From a virus: 20,391 nucleotides of DNA. Of the stretch, positions 12,275-20,391 are shown piece by piece. The position numbers and the translations under genes were made by a program. Location: positions 1 to 20,391 of IMG/VR virus record IMGVR_UViG_3300023284_000997. One strand, 5' to 3'. Within the stretch, counting starts at the first letter, position 1. Every line of letters starts with the position of its first letter. The notes under the pieces are model-generated. The model was not told the origin of the DNA, did not search any database, and worked only from the letters and a program-made list of their open reading frames with translations.

Positions 12275-12312
12275 TTCATGCTCCACTATCGCAGGAGTAG
12301 CGACGGTTACTT

Positions 12313-12358
12313 AAAAAACCCCCGTGACCAATTTTCGCATTGGCAGCAAACACGGAGG
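12313..12358 (-). terminator. Forked intrinsic terminator before the scaffold gene
   Basis: On the minus strand an outer 8-bp stem pairs CCTCCGTG with CACGGGGG (one G-U pair; 12351-12358 with 12319-12326) and is followed by six T's (12313-12318). Inside it is a smaller stem, CCAAT with ATTGG around GCGAAA. It would end transcripts from the packaging genes 27-40 bases before the scaffold start. Confidence 0.85.
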
Positions 12359-12374
12359 AACAAAACAAATAGGT

Positions 12375-12416
12375 GGCCGGCAACGTTCGCCAAGTGGAGT
12401 GCATACGTCACCGGCC
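12375..12416 (-). other. 12-bp hairpin in the structured leader upstream of the scaffold gene
   Basis: The minus strand can pair 12405-12416 (GGCCGGTGACGT) with 12375-12386 (ACGTTGCCGGCC) as 12 bp, two of them G-U, around an 18-base loop. A smaller GGGCT/AGCCC stem lies just upstream and the forked terminator just downstream. Wobble pairs favour RNA from the minus strand. A T-rich stretch (TATTTGTTTTGTT) follows, so it may be a weak terminator in series with the next. Confidence 0.65.
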
Positions 12417-12443
12417 GGAGGGGCTATGAACAGCCCAAACTGG

Positions 12444-12557
12444 TCAAAAAATTTCAGGCCATATCACGTATCGGTATACGGCCCATCCTAAAAATCCAAG
12501 TGCTGCGAATATGACTAATACCGCGCACCATAAAACTCGGTCGTCATCTTCATCCAT
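12444..12557 (-). CDS. Very small single-TM protein
   Basis: 37 residues from the ATG at 12557, with GGTGA four bases upstream. Longer in-frame starts (12611, 12629) would lie inside the preceding 45-codon gene, so I take the short form. An acidic lead (MDEDDDR) is followed by one membrane segment of about 22 residues (LWCAVLVIFAALGFLGWAVYRY) and a short end (VIWPEIF). Orientation would be N-out or N-in with the acidic head free; the sequence does not say. No family was recognised. It is the last gene before the structured leader and forked terminator. Confidence 0.5.
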   Translation of the reverse strand: MDEDDDRVLWCAVLVIFAALGFLGWAVYRYVIWPEIF

Positions 12558-12582
12558 AAAATCACCGTAGCGCCCCCAGCTT

Positions 12583-12720
12583 TTACTTATGGTCAGCCAG
12601 TCCTTTGCCATACATAAACTCTCTGGCAACTTTTTTCGGTGGGCATTTGTCCCTGGCTTTTTTTGGCTTGTAATAACACAAGGCCATGAATTTCTGTTGC
12701 TCGGGACTCTTAGCTGGCAT
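12583..12720 (-). CDS. DUF3008-like small basic protein
   Basis: 45 residues, beginning MPAKSPEQQKFM and ending MYGKGLADHK. The MPAKS..QQ+.M start, the following KPKKARDKCPPKKVAREF and the small basic character match the DUF3008 family of short phage and bacterial proteins, whose role is unknown. The ATG lies two bases after the stop of the upstream 69-residue gene, a normal coupled spacing. The stop falls 25 bases before the next start. It would be missed by a 60-codon cut-off. Placement between portal and scaffold is a site where many phages carry DUF3008-like genes, but that is recollection and was not checked. Confidence 0.68.
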   Translation of the reverse strand: MPAKSPEQQKFMALCYYKPKKARDKCPPKKVAREFMYGKGLADHK

Positions 12721-12722
12721 CG

Positions 12723-12932: not shown

Positions 12933-15010
12933 CTTGCTGCCCCACCATTGAGTTTGACAGAATCGCGCTCTGTGGGTTCTGGTTCGGCCTGACCGGCAAT
13001 GGCCAGGCGGGTTCCAACCCGGGTTTCCTCGGTCTGTGCCTCGTTGAGATCAGCTTTGGTGCGTTTTTCTTCGGCGCTGGCTTCTTTTTCCTCGGCCTCG
13101 GCGTCGAGCTTGCGTTTTTCCGCTGCTTCCATTTCCAGCATTCTCTGGTTTTCTTCCTCGCGCTGTTGCAGCTTTTGCTCCAACTGTTCCTTTTCCTCCG
13201 GAGACATTGCTTCCATATTCTCTGGCATGGTCAGACCAGTGGCATCGCGGAAACGCTGCGCAATGATGTCCTTGTCTGGCAAATCACTGGCGCCAATCAC
13301 GATGTCCATAATCATGCCTTGGAACTGAGGATCAAGCGACTTGACCATTTCAGACAATTCTTTGAATTGCTGCGCTCTGTATGTCGGGTTGCTTGGCGCA
13401 TCGGCCAGCTCGACATTCAAATTTGCGCGCATCACATCGTTGTCGCGATACTCCAAACCATTGCCCGTGTACTTGGTGTCATTCAGTATCACAATGGTTT
13501 TGTTACCGCTTTGTCCGGTAATCTCGACCTCGGTGAGCTGTGAACCCATGTCGTTCTGGATCAGCGATGTCAGTAATTTACCAACCCGCCTACGTGCATC
13601 GCGGTGGTTGTCGAATATCTTGGCCAGCGTGGTTGTGCCTTGCTCGACCAGTGAATTGATAGCAACACCGGAATCATTTTGCCCCTTACCCAGCATTTGG
13701 TGGAACACCCCGGCAGTATCTTGCAGGGTTTCTTTAGAGTCTTTATAGACATCGAATTGCTGGGCCGACAATCCTTTATGCTCGTTGATCTTGAATCGTT
13801 CATCAATCGAACGGCCTTTCGGATCGTCCTCTAAAACAATGTAGGCATCTGGCCGGGCAATTTCTTTTTGCACGGACGTATGATCTTTGACCACACCTTG
13901 CTCGGTGAGGACTTGACGCGATGAAAGCTGCCACAGCATCTTGTTACGCCTGGCGTTGATTTCATCCTGCAAAGGCATCATCGAACGGATCAGTCCATAC
14001 GGCATCCGGGTGCGATCTTCACGGTATCCCCAGAACGGCACATACGGGAATTCATTGTGCGGGTGCGGCGTCGGAATATCGTCAAATCTGACTGGCCCCA
14101 TCCACCACGACAATCTCATCTTGTTGTAAGAGGCAGATTCTACTTTGCCGAAATTCTGGTCAACGGCAATCTGGTGCATGATGTTTTTCTTATCGAACTC
14201 CATCACGCGACCGTCCTTCAATGTCAGCACATGCCCGCGCATCCATTTGCGATACCAGACTTCGTAAAGCATCACGCGGCGGCGTTCTGAATCTCTCCAT
14301 TCCGCTTCATCAAGCCCCCAATCTCGTTCGATCAGATTGTCTTGCAGATATGGGTAGGAGTGCGTGAACTGTGCCGGATCCCAATGGGCCATGAAATCGC
14401 CGGCATGTAACAAGATGTCTCGGTGCTGGGGGAATAAAGCGGCTACATGATCGACATCGTGCCATTTTCTACGGCAAACGTACCGCGCATCGGACAAATC
14501 GTTCTCCCGCGAACGAGTATCCCAATACATTTCACGCCGATGCGGGCTTCTGACGCGATACCGATAGCCGAAAGGATCTCCATTTTTCCCCACTTCTACC
14601 CACCCAATACCGGATTTTACTTGCTCGGCAAAGGCATCGGCAATGGACATATCAGCGCGTGTCATGCGCTCGGCCTTGTGCAAAAGCTCAGAAAGTGCCT
14701 TGGCTAGATTCTGATTGACCCTGCCATTTTCCGATTCCGGTAATACTTTCCAATCGGATCTGGTCTTGGCTTCCATACCCAGCACCACATCGATGGTGGG
14801 CTTGATGAGATTGACAACGATAACTGGTAAGCCACGGGCCTCAAGCTCAGCCACGATGGATGGGTCATACTGGTTCGAGTCATAGTAATCGCACTCGATA
14901 TCCGCACGAACCCGCCACCCCGGAGCATGGTGCATATCGTCAAGAAACCGATTGATTTGATCGATCTCCATGCCCGGATTTTTGGCTAGGTCTAATGACC
15001 AATGCAGCAT
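12929..15010 (-). CDS. Portal protein, P22-like
   Basis: 693 residues from the ATG at 15010, which overlaps the terminase stop (TAATG) and has GGAG nine bases upstream; an in-frame TTG at 15025 would add five residues. Recognisable segments are INLIKPTIDVVLGMEAKTRSDWKV-type sequence (about 70-90), DMSIADAFAEQVKSGIGWVEVG (about 120-140), RSPHRREMYWDTRSRE..L.DARYV (about 157-180), an R.RRVMLYEVWYRKW strand pair, a WMGPVRFDD.PTPHPHNEFPYVPFWGYRED.TRMPYGLIRSMMPLQDEINARRNKMLWQLSS block (about 315-375) and GVAINSLVEQGTTTLAKIFDNHRDARR (about 465-490). These match P22-like portals. The C-terminal 100 residues are a Glu/Gln/Lys coiled coil, perhaps the barrel. It would form the dodecameric DNA entry ring that docks the terminase. 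Confidence 0.88.
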   Translation of the reverse strand: MLHWSLDLAKNPGMEIDQINRFLDDMHHAPGWRVRADIECDYYDSNQYDPSIVAELEARGLPVIVVNLIKPTIDVVLGMEAKTRSDWKVLPESENGRVNQNLAKALSELLHKAERMTRADMSIADAFAEQVKSGIGWVEVGKNGDPFGYRYRVRSPHRREMYWDTRSRENDLSDARYVCRRKWHDVDHVAALFPQHRDILLHAGDFMAHWDPAQFTHSYPYLQDNLIERDWGLDEAEWRDSERRRVMLYEVWYRKWMRGHVLTLKDGRVMEFDKKNIMHQIAVDQNFGKVESASYNKMRLSWWMGPVRFDDIPTPHPHNEFPYVPFWGYREDRTRMPYGLIRSMMPLQDEINARRNKMLWQLSSRQVLTEQGVVKDHTSVQKEIARPDAYIVLEDDPKGRSIDERFKINEHKGLSAQQFDVYKDSKETLQDTAGVFHQMLGKGQNDSGVAINSLVEQGTTTLAKIFDNHRDARRRVGKLLTSLIQNDMGSQLTEVEITGQSGNKTIVILNDTKYTGNGLEYRDNDVMRANLNVELADAPSNPTYRAQQFKELSEMVKSLDPQFQGMIMDIVIGASDLPDKDIIAQRFRDATGLTMPENMEAMSPEEKEQLEQKLQQREEENQRMLEMEAAEKRKLDAEAEEKEASAEEKRTKADLNEAQTEETRVGTRLAIAGQAEPEPTERDSVKLNGGAAR

Positions 15011-16566
15011 TACATTGTTCTCCAATTAAGCGGTCTATTCGGATCTGGTGTGTCGTTCCTGTCTGTCGCATAGCCCAAATAGGCAAACGTCAGTGTCAGA
15101 GCATCACCGTCATCGGGCGACGGTTCACCGCGATCCCGAATATCATCTTTGGATTCCAACTTGACGCGATACTTCGAGTCCTTCTTTGACTGTGTGCAAG
15201 TCAGATCGGCCTGAATCTCATCTTCATCAGGCAGCGATACTTGCGGCTGTTCGCTCAGCCATTCGTTTGTACGGCCCCACATTTCAGCGCGTTTGTTGAA
15301 ATACTTTAGTGGCTCATCTGGTGAGCTACCGGCGTTTACCGGTGTCACCAAGTCGCCAAATTCTGAATGATTCATCTGGTCGTAGACTCCAGCGCCTATA
15401 CCGATGACATCAATGAAAATCCTCTTGGGGCGATCATTTACTGGTGTGTTGTTGAGCATGGCGAGCAACCGTCCGGTCGATTGAACCGTATCAAGTTTCT
15501 CCCATCCCCCCACCCTTTTGGCAACACAACCTTGTCGTTCCCAAATACGAAACCTGTCTTTTCCCAGCCACGCTGGATCCACACCCCAAATCCTGTTGCC
15601 TATCGCCTCGACGCCCTTGGCCTTACGGGCTTTCAAGACATCCACAGATTTGATGAGCGCATTGGTTTCATCACGCGAGAATGCTTCTTCCGGGGTTGCA
15701 GGATATTCCTGCTGGAAGCGAATCAGTCCAGAATCACCGCCTCCAAACTGCTCGATCTTGTCATGCCGCCATTGCATTTGAGAAAGTGTCAGCTCCCAAA
15801 TGCGAGCGTATTCTTCTTCCTCGATGGTCAGATCCAGATCCGACCGCGGCACGGATTGATATTCCTGCATCAAAAACCACGGCAGAAACATGAACTTGAA
15901 CTCGTTGAGTCCTTTCCTTGCCCGGGCGCACAGCCGATAAAAGTAATTCGACATACCCTTGGCAGTCGATTCCAGCCAAATCTCTGTGCCTGGAGCATCG
16001 GCTACGCCCTGCATCACACCGGTTGCAATACCTTCGGCATCACCCCAGAACGCGACCTCAGAGCCATGGAAATACTGAATAGTGAACGACCTACCGCCAC
16101 TGCCGGTCTTGGCCGTACCTACAGCGTAGGCGCTGTCGAGTTTCGAGAACACCAGCTCCTTGGCATTTGATTTCTTGGTGAACGGCTTGAAACGGTTATC
16201 CATGTTGTCATGGAAGCGCTTGGTCATGCCGAACAAGTTATTGGTGGCGCGATCTTCATGGGTCAGGATAAACGCCTGCTTACCCCGCTGGCCCGATGTG
16301 TTGCGGTAGAACCGGCCTTGGATGTAGGTGGAAATGCCTTCCTGCCGGGCTTTCAGCACCAGTGTACGAACCTTGCCATGCTCTTGGATCTGCCGTTCAG
16401 CATCTCTGTGAACGATCATCTGCGGCTCATTCAGCTCGAACGGGATAACCGAACCAATCTTGGTACGGATTTTCAGAAACTCTTTGGAGAAGTCAGGGAA
16501 TGGCTGGAACCGGGCGATGCGTACTGCCTTGGCGCCCATGGCCATTTTGTCTTGGGCAACGCTCAT
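15010..16566 (-). CDS. terL: Large terminase subunit (TerL)
   Basis: 518 residues; the ATG overlaps the deformylase stop (ATGA). The ATPase half has a variant Walker A, KARQEGIST (72-80), a YFHGSEVAFW segment (165-174) that fits Walker B with Glu170, and an EIWLESTAKG motif (195-204) typical of the coupling region. An EYPATPEEAF motif (287-296) marks the end of the ATPase. The nuclease half has the expected acidic residues: IWGVDPAW (Asp330), RIFIDVIGIGAG (Asp386) and a PDDGDAL stretch (Asp485-488). It would pump DNA into the head through the portal and cut the concatemer. Length and motif order are complete, so it looks functional. The type (headful or cos) cannot be read from the sequence. 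Confidence 0.92.
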   Translation of the reverse strand: MSVAQDKMAMGAKAVRIARFQPFPDFSKEFLKIRTKIGSVIPFELNEPQMIVHRDAERQIQEHGKVRTLVLKARQEGISTYIQGRFYRNTSGQRGKQAFILTHEDRATNNLFGMTKRFHDNMDNRFKPFTKKSNAKELVFSKLDSAYAVGTAKTGSGGRSFTIQYFHGSEVAFWGDAEGIATGVMQGVADAPGTEIWLESTAKGMSNYFYRLCARARKGLNEFKFMFLPWFLMQEYQSVPRSDLDLTIEEEEYARIWELTLSQMQWRHDKIEQFGGGDSGLIRFQQEYPATPEEAFSRDETNALIKSVDVLKARKAKGVEAIGNRIWGVDPAWLGKDRFRIWERQGCVAKRVGGWEKLDTVQSTGRLLAMLNNTPVNDRPKRIFIDVIGIGAGVYDQMNHSEFGDLVTPVNAGSSPDEPLKYFNKRAEMWGRTNEWLSEQPQVSLPDEDEIQADLTCTQSKKDSKYRVKLESKDDIRDRGEPSPDDGDALTLTFAYLGYATDRNDTPDPNRPLNWRTM

Positions 16567-17066
16567 GCGATCTCGCCAAGCCCCAGAATCTCCCTACTTG
16601 TGCGCTGCGGCTTGATCTGACGAACCTTGGTTGCCCTGTCGGTCATCAAAATGCCATTAAGGTGATCGATTTCGTGACACCACACGGAAGAATCGAATGA
16701 ACTCACCTGAACTCTAAGTGGTTGAAAGTCGCCAGGCGTCATGCCAACAACCGTAATTCGGTAAGGCCGGTATGTGGTGCATTGCATGTTGGGTATCGAA
16801 AGACAACGCTCTTGGAACTTCTTTCGGCCATAGCGGGCAACAATCTCCGGGTTTAGCAATGCAATCACTTGCCCGCCATGGCTCACTGTAACAACAACAC
16901 GGCGCATCCAACCGACTTGGGGGCCAGCAAGGCCAGCCCCACCGTGGTCGATCATCAGCTTGGCCATCTGGTGACATTTCTTCACCAGCTCCGGGCCATG
17001 CTCACCATGCACGAACTCAGAACATTGCTGAGTCAGATTTGGGTGAGGCCGTGTGAGAATTTTCAT
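16563..17066 (-). CDS. def: Phage peptide deformylase
   Basis: 167 residues from the ATG at 17066, which overlaps the upstream stop (ATGA). The three deformylase motifs are present in order: GAGLAGPQ (43-50; usual form GxGLAAxQ), ERCLS (86-90; usual EGCLS, so Gly is replaced by Arg while metal-binding Cys88 stays) and HEIDH (131-135) with both metal ligands and the catalytic Glu. The enzyme removes the formyl group from new N-terminal methionines. N-terminal MKILTRPHPNL and length are normal for the family. Phage deformylases are known from several lineages, usually not set between unknown genes and TerL, as here. The Gly-to-Arg change next to the ligand could alter substrate fit. Ligands intact, so activity is likely. 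Confidence 0.9.
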   Translation of the reverse strand: MKILTRPHPNLTQQCSEFVHGEHGPELVKKCHQMAKLMIDHGGAGLAGPQVGWMRRVVVTVSHGGQVIALLNPEIVARYGRKKFQERCLSIPNMQCTTYRPYRITVVGMTPGDFQPLRVQVSSFDSSVWCHEIDHLNGILMTDRATKVRQIKPQRTSREILGLGEIA

Positions 17067-17377
17067 TGTTTTACCGGTACGAACATTTTGCTGTGACCAA
17101 TTATGGTGCAACTGTTTCCATATAGATCACGGAAATAATCAACCAAACTATCCGCCACAACAAAAGTCGGCTTCTGGAAATCAGGTAAGCGATCCATCTG
17201 CTCCACCATGCGTTTGACGCAATCTATCAACCGCTCAGTTTTACCATACTGCCTGGCATAGCAAACTGGCGATAAAAGAGGCTTACCAAGCGGTATTTCC
17301 TCAATCTCTGAAATGTCCATCATTTGACGCTTTACTGTGGGCCATAGATCCATTAGATCCTGCACATTTTTATTCAT
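17063..17377 (-). CDS. Hypothetical protein upstream of the deformylase
   Basis: 104 residues with ATGA overlaps at both ends. Helical N-terminal part (MNKNVQDLMDLWPTVKRQMMDISEIEEIPLGKPLL), then a YARQYGKTERLIDCV stretch (about 41-55) in which QYGKT faintly recalls a P-loop, and a FVVADSLVDYFRDLYG segment (about 72-87) followed by CTIIGHSKMFVPV. The P-loop likeness is incomplete (no GxxxxGK[ST] form) and the protein is far too short for an ATPase. No family was recognised. Tight coupling on both sides says it is translated with the deformylase. Confidence 0.6.
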   Translation of the reverse strand: MNKNVQDLMDLWPTVKRQMMDISEIEEIPLGKPLLSPVCYARQYGKTERLIDCVKRMVEQMDRLPDFQKPTFVVADSLVDYFRDLYGNSCTIIGHSKMFVPVKQ

Positions 17378-17733
17378 GGCCGGCCCCGCCGATACCGCTG
17401 CATGAATTCATCGGACACCAGATCAGGCGAACCAATCAACCTCTGCTTGGTGCAGATATTGTCGATCATGCTCGCCCGCAACCGATTGATTTGATCCTGC
17501 TTTTCCTGCTTTTCCTTCATAGCCTCTGTTACAGGGTAGTAATCAACAGGTCGAATTGCATTGATGTGATCTTGAAGTTCCTTCACATCTTCTGTCAGAA
17601 GTCTGTTCCGAAGCCTCGGCAAATCAGCAACAGGGCCGGCCTCCGGTGCAACAATAGCCCGTGAAACTGCAACCATTGGCAGTGCAGCGGCAACCCCGAT
17701 GCCAGCCGACTTAAGAAAGTTACGCCGGTTCAT
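17374..17733 (-). CDS. Small exported protein with twin-arginine (Tat) signal
   Basis: 119 residues from the ATG at 17733, with AGGAGGAGG about six bases upstream; the longer frame to 17781 lies inside the previous gene. The N-terminus MNRRNFLKSAGIGVAAALPM carries a twin-arginine motif (N-R-R-N-F-L-K; consensus [ST]-R-R-x-F-L-K), then a mild hydrophobic stretch and a likely cleavage after VSRA (about residue 26). The mature part is short, helical and charged (LPRLRNRLLTEDVKELQDHIN, then EAMKEKQEKQDQINRLRASMI) and ends in RYRRGRP. It would be folded in the cytosol and sent to the periplasm by the host Tat system. No enzymatic domain is visible, so the signal may be inherited from a host gene; function unknown. 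Confidence 0.6.
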   Translation of the reverse strand: MNRRNFLKSAGIGVAAALPMVAVSRAIVAPEAGPVADLPRLRNRLLTEDVKELQDHINAIRPVDYYPVTEAMKEKQEKQDQINRLRASMIDNICTKQRLIGSPDLVSDEFMQRYRRGRP

Positions 17734-18124
17734 GGTGGGCCTCCTCCTCCTGCCGAGATTCAACTGGACTTTCCACTTCATCGGCCATGGTCATACCGTG
17801 TTGAATCTGCTGCGATTCATGACGCACGATGCCGGCTAAAATGGCATACCAAGTATCGCTACTACACTCGCCATCCGGAAGATCATTACCCCTGAACCAG
17901 TCCTCACCCGGGCGCATAATGCGCGAGCGCGAAGTACAGCCCAGATAAAAATGAGCGATGACAGCGCCAGAATCATCAAATGACGCTTTACACACGATTG
18001 AATAACGATTCTTGGCCGTGTACAGGAAAACCCGGAAATTGCCTGGCTCATCTACATCCACATGAACGCAAGTGCCAATTAAATCCCGAGACAAAAACCC
18101 TTTGAAAACTTCGATGTCGTTCAT
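17720..18124 (-). CDS. Conserved phage hypothetical protein (RPGEDWFRGNDLPDG type)
   Basis: 134 residues; ATG at 18124 with AGGAGG seven bases upstream. Beta-rich N-terminal part (VFLYTAKNRYSIVCKASFDDSGAVIAHFYLGC) leads to RIMRPGEDWFRGNDLPDGE (about 69-87) and a helix SSDTWYAILAGIVRHESQQI. The 'RPGEDW.RGNDLpDG....TW..I...I..yE' pattern is one I recall from many phage hypothetical proteins near packaging genes; its function is unknown. The last 30 residues are acidic and probably disordered. The end overlaps the Tat-signal gene by 14 bases. Confidence 0.7.
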   Translation of the reverse strand: MNDIEVFKGFLSRDLIGTCVHVDVDEPGNFRVFLYTAKNRYSIVCKASFDDSGAVIAHFYLGCTSRSRIMRPGEDWFRGNDLPDGECSSDTWYAILAGIVRHESQQIQHGMTMADEVESPVESRQEEEAHHEPA

Positions 18125-18142: not shown

Positions 18143-18634
18143 TTATTTACGATATCCTTCTTCTCCATCAAAACGCTTGCGCATATCGTCCAGCACAAAT
18201 GCCGCTCTTTCAATCTGGTCGAACAACTTGCGCTGCTCATGACGCAGGCCAATCAAGCCACGCCGCGGTCTGACAGGCTCCAAAGTCATGTGGGAACCCG
18301 GCCGCATAGTAATGGTGGCCTTCCCCTCAATGTCCTCATCCGGTTTTGGATCGCTATCCATTTCCGGTGCCGGCTCATCGAATATGGTTTCGTACAAGTT
18401 ATCCAGATCGCGATGCAATTGCTGGATAGCAATAATATGATCGCAACAATTGCCGATCAATCCATCGATGATGTTGTCTGTACGAACTTCGTTATACTTG
18501 ATAACAATCGGATCACGGTCGGCTTGGCCTCTCTCTGTCAGCTCGGCTCGGCCTCTCTCGGCATCCTCCGTCAAAAAGCCATCCTCTGTGGGATCTGTCG
18601 GCCGATCACGTTCCAAATTCTTTTCACCGTTCAT
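18143..18634 (-). CDS. Hypothetical acidic protein, first gene after the candidate RNA
   Basis: 163 residues from the ATG at 18634, with GGAGG five bases upstream. An in-frame ATG at 18667, with a weaker GGAG, would add 11 residues and place a hairpin inside the coding region; I prefer the later start. N-terminal 40 residues are charged and hold an 8-residue repeat (ERGRAELT/ERGQADRD) from a 24-bp tandem duplication (16 of 17 identical bases at 18519-18535 and 18543-18559). A helical part (IGNCCDHIIAIQQLHRDLDNLY) and a C-terminal helix with GLIGLRHEQRKLFDQIERAAFVLDDM follow. No family was recognised. It begins the packaging operon. Confidence 0.6.
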   Translation of the reverse strand: MNGEKNLERDRPTDPTEDGFLTEDAERGRAELTERGQADRDPIVIKYNEVRTDNIIDGLIGNCCDHIIAIQQLHRDLDNLYETIFDEPAPEMDSDPKPDEDIEGKATITMRPGSHMTLEPVRPRRGLIGLRHEQRKLFDQIERAAFVLDDMRKRFDGEEGYRK

Positions 18635-18649
18635 AACATCCTCCAGTTC

Positions 18650-18665
18650 GCAACCAATCGGTTGC
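18650..18665 (-). promoter_or_regulatory. Small hairpin just before the 18634 start
   Basis: GCAACC and GGTTGC pair as 6 bp around the loop GATT on the minus strand. The stem ends 6-7 bases before the GGAGG of the following gene and covers the alternative upstream start at 18667. It could tune access to that ribosome site; no ligand is implied. Confidence 0.5.
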
Positions 18666-18690
18666 ATTGCACTCCACTTAAAAGAAAAAA

Positions 18691-19000
18691 TTTATCAGTG
18701 GCCGGACGCTACCCCGGCTATACGGGTTTCGGCTGAAAACTTGCCATTCCCGCAGGTCTAGGATTAGAAACCCTGACATCACACCTTTACACACAGCAAC
18801 CAGCTATCGCGTACGCTCACTCGCTCCCAAACAAGGGCCAAATTGCTTCTTGTGGTTCAAACGGTTTCCCTACTACTCACACTTAGGGACAAACGGAACC
18901 TTCCACTGCTGTCAAGGTCGTTTTCACTTCGGGCCGCGTGTCTCTAAGCCCTTACGCTGCCCAAAACATCGGGGGCTGCTTTCCACGCCGCACTGACAAA
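18691..19000 (-). ncRNA. Candidate structured noncoding RNA of about 310 nt
   Basis: No coding frame fits this stretch. Its minus-strand ends pair: TTTGTCAGTG (19000-18991) with CACTGATAAA (18700-18691), 10 bp with one G-U, a pair that would be an A-C mismatch in the other strand and so favours minus-strand RNA. Inside are further stems: GGGTTTC/GAAACCC, 7 bp (18773-18767 with 18730-18724); TCCCTA/TAGGGA, 6 bp (18889-18884 with 18872-18867), nested in GGTTC/GAACC, 5 bp (18900-18896 with 18858-18854); ACAAG/CTTGT (18853-18849 with 18835-18831); GCCGG/CCGGC (18718-18714 with 18705-18701). The closing stem is followed at once by TTTTTTCTTTT (18690-18680), like a transcript end. It does not match tmRNA, RNase P, 6S, rRNA or intron signatures I know. 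A pac or other DNA site is the main alternative. Confidence 0.55.
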
Positions 19001-19003
19001 ATC

Positions 19004-19294
19004 TTATTCAGGTTCCTTCGGCTCGAGTAAATTCTTGTCCACTTGGACGCCAACGGAACCCCGTATCAAATCATGGCGAATTCTCGACGCCATAATATCC
19101 AAATTGCCCAGCATATCGATACTGACAGCGCCAGGCGTCAACCAAGTCGAAACTCCAACTTTTTCAACGCAAGCCACAGCAAGCGATCTGATTTCGCCAG
19201 CCTCCGCTTTCTTCAAAATGTGCCGGGCAATCTCGACGCAACCTACGTCGCAACGATCCGTCACCAGCTTAACTACCTTGCCAGCATCAGACAC
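19004..19294 (-). CDS. Small conserved phage hypothetical protein
   Basis: 96 residues from a GTG at 19294, supported by GGAAGG about seven bases upstream and an 8-base overlap with the preceding gene. The stretch IARHILKKAEAGEIRSLAVACVEK (about 22-45) followed by a beta pair and MLGNLDIMASRIRHDLIRG resembles small phage proteins with a 'GEI..la.a.v..dG......' core and a 'LLG.l..l...l' helix; the family has no known function. It ends 3-4 bases before the closing stem of the candidate RNA, so a transcript from this block would run directly into that structure. Confidence 0.62.
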   Translation of the reverse strand: MSDAGKVVKLVTDRCDVGCVEIARHILKKAEAGEIRSLAVACVEKVGVSTWLTPGAVSIDMLGNLDIMASRIRHDLIRGSVGVQVDKNLLEPKEPE

Positions 19295-19508
19295 GATTCA
19301 CCTTCCTCGACCCCAACATCTGCTGATGAATACTGTCTCGCAACGACTGATACGCCTTAAACGCCTCCACTGTGGCAGGATCATGTTTGATCGGGTTAAG
19401 CTCGACTTTTTCCGGCACCAACGGCTTCCGTTCAAATTCCTCTTGCTCGAAACGACGCCGTATCTCCGGATCTTCTAACGCTGCAATCGCTCTATTGAAC
19501 TGCTCCAT
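19287..19508 (-). CDS. Small helical hypothetical protein
   Basis: 73 residues; ATG at 19508 with GGAGG six bases upstream. Highly charged and helical (FNRAIAALEDPEIRRRFEQEEF, then ATVEAFKAYQSLRDSIHQQML), with a proline-containing middle (KPLVPEKVELNPIKHDP). No membrane segment or motif. Overlaps the next gene by eight bases. Composition and ribosome site support a real gene; function unknown. Confidence 0.62.
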   Translation of the reverse strand: MEQFNRAIAALEDPEIRRRFEQEEFERKPLVPEKVELNPIKHDPATVEAFKAYQSLRDSIHQQMLGSRKVNRV

Positions 19509-19524
19509 GACCTACCTCCACTTG

Positions 19525-19770
19525 TTACGCCCATGTGCAAAACCCATTGATTACGTCTGCCACGGGCCGGTACGGTCGATCTACGTCAGCTCGGGCCGCA
19601 TACGATTTTTTTTCGTTCACCCTCGGTAACTGCTTTCTCACCGGAATCTCAATAGCAGACTCATACGTGCCGGGGCTATACGTATCACCATACACCTTAT
19701 ATATGGCCAATTCTCTCACGTCCAACACAACATCCCCTATTCCAAAAATTGGACTCCCAGCTATTACCAC
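19525..19770 (-). CDS. Small hypothetical protein, start uncertain
   Basis: 81 residues if read from the GTG at 19770, which lacks a clear ribosome site and follows an in-frame TAG. A GTG at 19728 has GGGG five bases upstream and would give 67 residues. The sequence is beta-rich at first (IFGIGDVVLDVRELAIYKVYGD), then YESAIEIPVRKQLPRVNEKK and a Pro/Tyr-containing end (DVDRPYRPVADVINGF). The opposite strand is also open here over almost the same span, but its translation has poorer composition and no neighbours in that direction. Function unknown. Confidence 0.45.
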   Translation of the reverse strand: MVIAGSPIFGIGDVVLDVRELAIYKVYGDTYSPGTYESAIEIPVRKQLPRVNEKKSYAARADVDRPYRPVADVINGFCTWA

Positions 19771-19893
19771 TCGGATCTAATATAGCTCAAACTCCACAGC
19801 AAACATCTACTGCTGTATGGGTTTCAAAGAAATCAATGACTTACAGAAATGGATCCAAAGCAGGGCACGCACGGAGAATGGGTGACTGTAATA
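19771..19893. other. Gene-free gap between the probable TerS and the next gene
   Basis: 123 bases without a supported frame on either strand. The minus strand holds one perfect 6-bp hairpin, ACAGCA/TGCTGT around nine bases, and a GAGCTATATTAGATCC stretch with a TATATT that could be a -10 box. No good -35 or T-run accompanies either. I see no tRNA. Confidence 0.4.
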
Positions 19894-20391
19894 TCACCCG
19901 CCTGCCTCTGCCGCGGCTCGTTCTGGAACATCCCCCCGGGTCTCGACTTCTCTGGCCTCACGCTCCGCTTCAACCTCATCCAGATAGTCCTCGTATCCGA
20001 AGCTGTCACCATCGTCCTCCTTGGTGTCCATGCCATACGCCTGCCGCTCCAGGTCGATGGCCCGCTTCAATGCTCGGGTAGCCCTCTCCATGATAGTGCT
20101 CACCCGATCAGCGAGCTTGAGCTGTTGCACTGGCGATCCAGCCGCATTGACTATGCTCAGCTTGGACGCCTTCTCGATCTGGCCTATGCAGTCCACCAGT
20201 ATGCCAGCCGCTTGCTTCGCAGCCTGGCGGTGCTTACGGATGATCGCCTGCACTACTTCCTTATAGTCCTCAACGATCTGCTCCACTGAGCTGTCGACAG
20301 CGTCACGAATACCGGACTCCACCAGTTCGCCGGCAGTCTGGCCCGTGGCCAGTAAGCTGAGCGAGTCACGAACCGCAGACTGGACGACACC
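19894..20391 (-). CDS. Probable terminase small subunit, N-terminus outside window
   Basis: The frame is open to the right edge (165 codons seen), so the start is missing; the GTG at 20322 is not the true start. Two helical blocks (VVQSAVRDSLSLLATG..., then IVEDYKEVVQAIIRKHRQAAKQAAGILVDCIGQI) precede LKLADRVSTIMERATRALKRAIDLERQAYGMD (about residues 94-125 of the visible part). The latter matches the 'R..tl..l..A...li.LERqAf.ld' ending I know from phage small terminase-like proteins that start packaging. An acidic tail follows (EDDGDSFGYEDYLDEVEAERE). No helix-turn-helix is visible in the part seen. Upstream of TerL by 3 kb, farther than usual, so the call is moderate. Confidence 0.5.
   Translation of the reverse strand, partial: GVVQSAVRDSLSLLATGQTAGELVESGIRDAVDSSVEQIVEDYKEVVQAIIRKHRQAAKQAAGILVDCIGQIEKASKLSIVNAAGSPVQQLKLADRVSTIMERATRALKRAIDLERQAYGMDTKEDDGDSFGYEDYLDEVEAEREAREVETRGDVPERAAAEAGG

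Follow-up and report, generated by a model that had tools for sequence, protein, structure and literature searches.

The window analysed here, the whole of a linear IMG/VR virus record of 20,391 bases, carries its genes on the minus strand. In the direction of transcription, a probable small terminase gene is followed by three small ORFs, a gene-free gap, four more small ORFs and the genes for peptide deformylase, large terminase, portal and capsid. The portal and the capsid protein share 42% and 50% identity, respectively, with their counterparts in Achromobacter phage CF418P1. The features that frame the gap are:

19894-20391, minus strand: probable small terminase subunit, truncated by the end of the record (phrog_1206, E 9.5e-7)
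19004-19294, minus strand: 96-aa ORF upstream of the gap (ORF list; PHROGs and Pfam searches)
18668-19003, minus strand: gene-free non-coding interval between the 96-aa and 174-aa ORFs (ORF list, codon-usage scores, six-frame Pfam searches)
18143-18667 (start possibly at 18634), minus strand: 174-aa ORF downstream of the gap, with no PHROGs or Pfam family
16563-17111, minus strand: peptide deformylase, in the accessory block that separates the small from the large terminase gene (Pfam PF01327, E 1.6e-30)
15010-16566, minus strand: large terminase subunit (41.9% identity to an annotated phage terminase)

The 96-aa ORF ends at 19004 and the 174-aa ORF begins at 18667, both on the minus strand, which leaves 336 bases between them. 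The interval grows to about 370 bases if translation of the 174-aa ORF begins at the second ATG (18634-18632), the one with the better ribosome site (GGAGGA at 18644-18639), and the gene-free stretch of roughly 370 bases described in the initial annotation is thus real; by the ORF list, it is the longest in the window. The accompanying statement that genes otherwise overlap holds for most of the window, but gaps of about 60-160 bases do exist elsewhere. The 174-aa ORF encodes many charged residues, and the place of the peptide deformylase gene, between small and large terminase, is unusual.

The gap is non-coding. Its minus strand contains no ORF of at least 40 codons, and its six-frame translations give no Pfam match at or above the cut-off. 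With 18 ORFs of the window as the training set, codon usage scores below zero in each of the gap's six frames, whereas the correct frame scores positive for 8 of 10 short test ORFs. That the gap is the remnant of a decayed gene is, in our view, very unlikely. Two plus-strand frames with few stops would fit such an origin, as would 35 bases that match a type I restriction gene and the gap's only two sub-threshold Pfam matches, to DUF1010 (E 0.031) and FliC_D2 (E 0.073); however, the negative codon-usage scores speak against it, both Pfam matches fall far below the cut-off, and the 35-base match, a single stretch found in one of 391 genomes (E 3.1e-4), is taken as a probable chance event. The excess of G on the minus strand, seen in the genes on either side, runs on through the gap, which is consistent with transcription on the gene strand.

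Neither ARAGORN nor Rfam detected a tRNA or tmRNA in the window, and none of the Rfam 15 covariance models matched it at or above the gathering score. For positions 18600-19100, a permissive Rfam search returned no match even at E<=10. The initial annotation had recognised no known RNA class at this site and had proposed such a search; the outcome agrees with that view, and fits equally well with a sequence that is not a structured RNA. It also removes a group I intron, or any other Rfam family, from the candidates for the identity of the gap. While phage group I introns are of similar length, the gap differs from them further in lying between two ORFs and in showing no sign of a split gene. 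A distant relative of the phage (L023) does carry a group I intron at 14624-14886 (Rfam RF00028, 59.6 bits), and the 176-aa ORF directly ahead of it (14092-14622) reads like an HNH-type endonuclease. GOLLD and ROOL are large RNAs of unknown function found in phages and prophages, and GOLLD, many members of which exceed 800 nt, often lies near tRNA islands (PMC12286853). The candidate in the gap, by comparison, would measure about 310 nt, in a window with no tRNA, and the permissive search matched it to neither class.

L144 and L145 are two relatives in which the portal and the large terminase both find a match, as does, weakly, the small terminase, which makes them the closest relatives of the packaging module. 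The probable small terminase is 29% identical to the ORF just ahead of the large terminase in L144, and in both relatives some 570-610 bases, with one small ORF, lie between the small and the large terminase. Here, that distance is about 3.3 kb, taken up by unrelated small genes, the deformylase gene and the gap, and the gap region is absent from L144 and L145. Since the terminase genes of these relatives are only about 600 bases apart, we assign the gap to a lineage-specific accessory block, apparently an insertion of about 3.3 kb; that the gap lies in a block which these two relatives lack at this place is shown. Its location there lowers the odds of an RNA of the packaging motor or of a packaging site. 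A role in packaging, or in the regulation of packaging genes, had been suggested for the element, and it finds no support in relatives that maintain their compact terminase arrangement without it.

The gap would resemble the pRNA of phi29 in being a phage RNA encoded near packaging genes. The pRNA is 174 nt long, is encoded near the end of the phi29 genome and is described as unique to phi29 and related Bacillus phages (PMC11476376). The genes of the present record are, in contrast, those of another tailed-phage group with a two-gene terminase, and the gap belongs to an accessory block and is without an Rfam match. As the large terminase, portal and capsid all match other phage groups, the locus falls outside the phi29-type pRNA systems.

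The same comparison bears on whether the gap acts as DNA, be it as a packaging start, as a binding site for the small terminase or as an operator, which of all the explanations considered we find the most improbable. About 0.9 kb separates the gap from the probable small terminase gene upstream of it, and one weak 21-bp direct repeat (76% alike) connects 18880-18900 with 19040-19060. However, no inverted repeats of at least 12 bases occur in 18600-19900, the core CAAACGGAACC is not clearly enriched (10 occurrences in the window against 5.8 expected, a count that 8 of 100 shuffles reach), and the nearest relatives do without the region. With no convincing repeats at hand, a pac site was set aside.

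We then come to the structure drawn in the gap, all of it read on the minus strand. Its outer elements are:

18991-19000, minus strand: 5' strand of the closing stem, UUUGUCAGUG (exact pattern, once in the window)
18972-18989, minus strand: predicted inward extension of the closing helix, 5' strand (GGC, UGGA, GC, GCCCC; MFE fold)
18700-18715, minus strand: predicted inward extension of the closing helix, 3' strand (GGGGU, GC, UCCG, GCC; MFE fold)
18691-18700, minus strand: 3' strand of the closing stem, CACUGAUAAA (exact pattern; P 0.08-0.26 by shuffling of the ends)
18680-18690, minus strand: T-run UUUUUUCUUUU, immediately behind the closing stem (the 11-mer with the most T in the window)

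The 10-bp closing stem is present exactly as first described: the pattern TTTGTCAGTG/CACTGATAAA occurs once, at 18691-19000 on the minus strand, where it joins the ends of the gap, and its lone non-Watson-Crick pair is indeed a G-U when read from the minus strand, the plus strand having A-C there. Together with the inward extension, it forms 23 interrupted pairs in the MFE fold. The U-rich run said to follow it is likewise found at 18690-18680, where TTTTTTCTTTT is the sole 11-mer with at least 10 T on either strand of the window. In a consensus scan of 18400-20391, no minus-strand sequence was recognised as an intrinsic terminator; there is no canonical terminator hairpin beside the T-run, and no promoter-like site was found on the minus strand of the gap.

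How unusual is it for the ends of such a sequence to pair? Shuffling produces a helix of 10 bp or longer between the gap ends in 8% of cases when the ends are taken as 35 nt and in 26% when they are taken as 60 nt; throughout this genome, 2-9% of equally long windows have one. The energy of the end-to-end duplex gives a P of 0.22 with 40-nt ends, 0.05 with 60-nt ends and 0.13 with 80-nt ends.

The inner part of the minus-strand fold is made up of the following elements:

18925-18968, minus strand: predicted hairpin of 8 + 4 bp with a mismatch (local fold z -1.64, P 0.074)
18783-18918, minus strand: predicted branched domain, the largest predicted domain (local fold z -0.14, P 0.41)
18854-18900, minus strand: predicted hairpin within the branched domain (local fold z -1.84, P 0.05)
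18724-18773, minus strand: hairpin closed by the 7-bp GGGUUUC/GAAACCC, arms 18773-18767 and 18730-18724 (local fold of 18723-18775, z -1.63, P 0.066)

The 7-bp GGGTTTC/GAAACCC stem put forward among several internal stems of 5-7 bp exists, but the number of such stems is about what chance would provide: 14 Watson-Crick stems of at least 5 bp were observed in the gap (10.3 expected), 2 of at least 6 bp (2.5 expected) and 1 of at least 7 bp (0.5 expected). The MFE of the minus strand has a z of -0.77, with 18 of 100 shuffles as good, and in an independent run 16% of 400 shuffles folded at least as well. The plus strand is, if anything, the more unusual of the two (z -1.48, 5% of shuffles), and several coding windows of the same record have a stronger fold z than the gap. 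The minus-strand ensemble is somewhat better defined than that of shuffled sequences, if marginally so (diversity P 0.07, centroid energy P 0.06). The layout is real, yet not clearly beyond chance. Because the energy, the length of the closing stem and the stem counts all lie within or near the shuffled range, the stems alone are no evidence for a functional structure. As argued in PMC8250186, a single-sequence fold or hand-drawn stems do not prove a functional structured RNA, and the present case illustrates how stems drawn by hand in one sequence fall short of establishing one.

These data can be set against the possibility that the gap encodes an independent, structured non-coding RNA. Such an RNA, of a class outside Rfam, would be transcribed from the minus strand and measure about 310 nt, with the long-range stem closing it and the T-run marking its end. 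We consider this possible but doubtful. The gene-free length argues for it, as do the end-to-end stem with its extension, the position of the window's only strong T-run directly behind that stem, the moderately well-defined ensemble and three hairpins that each reach a P of 0.05-0.07. Those hairpins were, however, chosen after the fold had been seen; the folding energy is unremarkable, above all in the largest predicted domain; the RNA would have neither a promoter-like site in the gap nor a canonical terminator hairpin by the T-run; and no homologue was found. The more specific proposal, that the accessory block gives rise to a phage RNA of this size and of an undescribed class, whose long-range closing stem would also terminate transcription, is a little more doubtful again. 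Should an independent RNA exist here, host take-over, protein binding and regulation of the block would be candidate functions. Few large phage RNAs are known, and their functions are mostly open. An RNA of such size, if real, would stand beside them as a new class. The interpretation of the gap as a new RNA is presently unsupported.

At the DNA level, no homologue of the gap was found among 50,697 phages or 72,556 plasmids. About 150 relative loci were collected through the large terminase, portal and capsid, with best identities of 42-45%, 49% and 64%, respectively, and blastn and nhmmer detected nothing above chance for the gap in them; the whole records behind 60 of these loci held merely 13-29-base matches. 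The best blastn match among relatives (L080, 1225-1260; 36 bases, E 1.2) lies inside an ORF and was dropped. The gaps that relatives have upstream of the portal gene show no similarity to this one. In IMG/VR viral contigs, two exact 15-base probes from the gap gave 23 and 27 matches, none of which extended meaningfully, as expected of chance. Around 790 genomes (399 + 391), sampled in the orders to which two hosts of distant relatives belong, yielded no homologue of the gap, the 35-base match noted above being the one hit.

Searches that started from the neighbouring proteins behaved similarly: the 174-aa ORF had no relative in viral contigs, the portal used alone as a query for homologues gave nothing, and a joined query of the eight proteins around the gap found none among phage records. 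In 1.6 Mb of sequence from relatives, a covariance model made from this one sequence and its fold matched the window alone, and in 60 genomes it matched nothing; this negative is weak, since a one-sequence model adds little over a sequence search. Nor do the homologue negatives as a whole refute an RNA, because the phage is without close relatives in the collections and an RNA conserved within its lineage could escape such searches.

A perfect 6-bp hairpin, GCAACC-GATT-GGTTGC, at 18665-18650 overlaps the first ATG of the 174-aa ORF and lies just upstream of the GGAGGA site that serves the second. The gap might be a cis-acting leader, an attenuator or a protein-binding operator, the folding of which would govern how the 174-aa ORF and the genes downstream of that ORF are transcribed or translated. 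We rate this as unlikely. The gap does sit directly upstream of that ORF, the hairpin covers its first ATG, and a possible alternative pairing, spotted by eye, would join CCACU on the 3' side of the closing helix to AGUGG just past the T-run. However, no homologue is at hand in which switching pairings could be tested, and the minus strand shows no recognised terminator. A cis-regulatory leader overlaps in part with the interpretation that we prefer.

We favour the interpretation of the gap as a non-coding intergenic spacer or untranslated leader within the accessory block between the small and the large terminase, to which we attach about as much belief as doubt. The gap would be transcribed within a minus-strand message together with the neighbouring genes, and its sole role would be to space the next gene or to lead into it. 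Its working parts would be the ribosome site that serves the 174-aa ORF, together with the short hairpin in front of that ORF, and its pairing would be what any G-rich transcript of 340 bases may show by chance rather than a conserved fold. We count in favour of a spacer or leader the absence of coding potential, a fold close to that of shuffles, the lack of an Rfam match and of a homologue, the placement in an accessory insertion and the continuing G excess. Against it, we count that no other gene-free stretch of this compact phage segment is as long as the gap, and that phages rarely retain some 340 idle bases; that the gap ends pair over 10 bp, with the window's only strong T-run beginning directly after; and that the structure predicted for the minus strand of the gap is defined somewhat better than in most shuffles (P ~0.06-0.07). 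The gap shares with ordinary phage intergenic leaders and spacers that it is non-coding, lies on the gene strand, precedes a ribosome site and has no conserved structure shown, and it differs from them in exceeding the other gaps of the window in length. For now, the gap counts as yet another phage spacer that is non-coding and has no relatives.

Genes are also sparse in the window at 12287-12722, where the ORF at 12444-12629 has a weak codon bias and an apparent single membrane helix. The 135-aa ORF at 17374-17781 has, close to its start, a signal for twin-arginine (TAT) export (PF10518, E 5.5e-5), which is uncommon in phage proteins.
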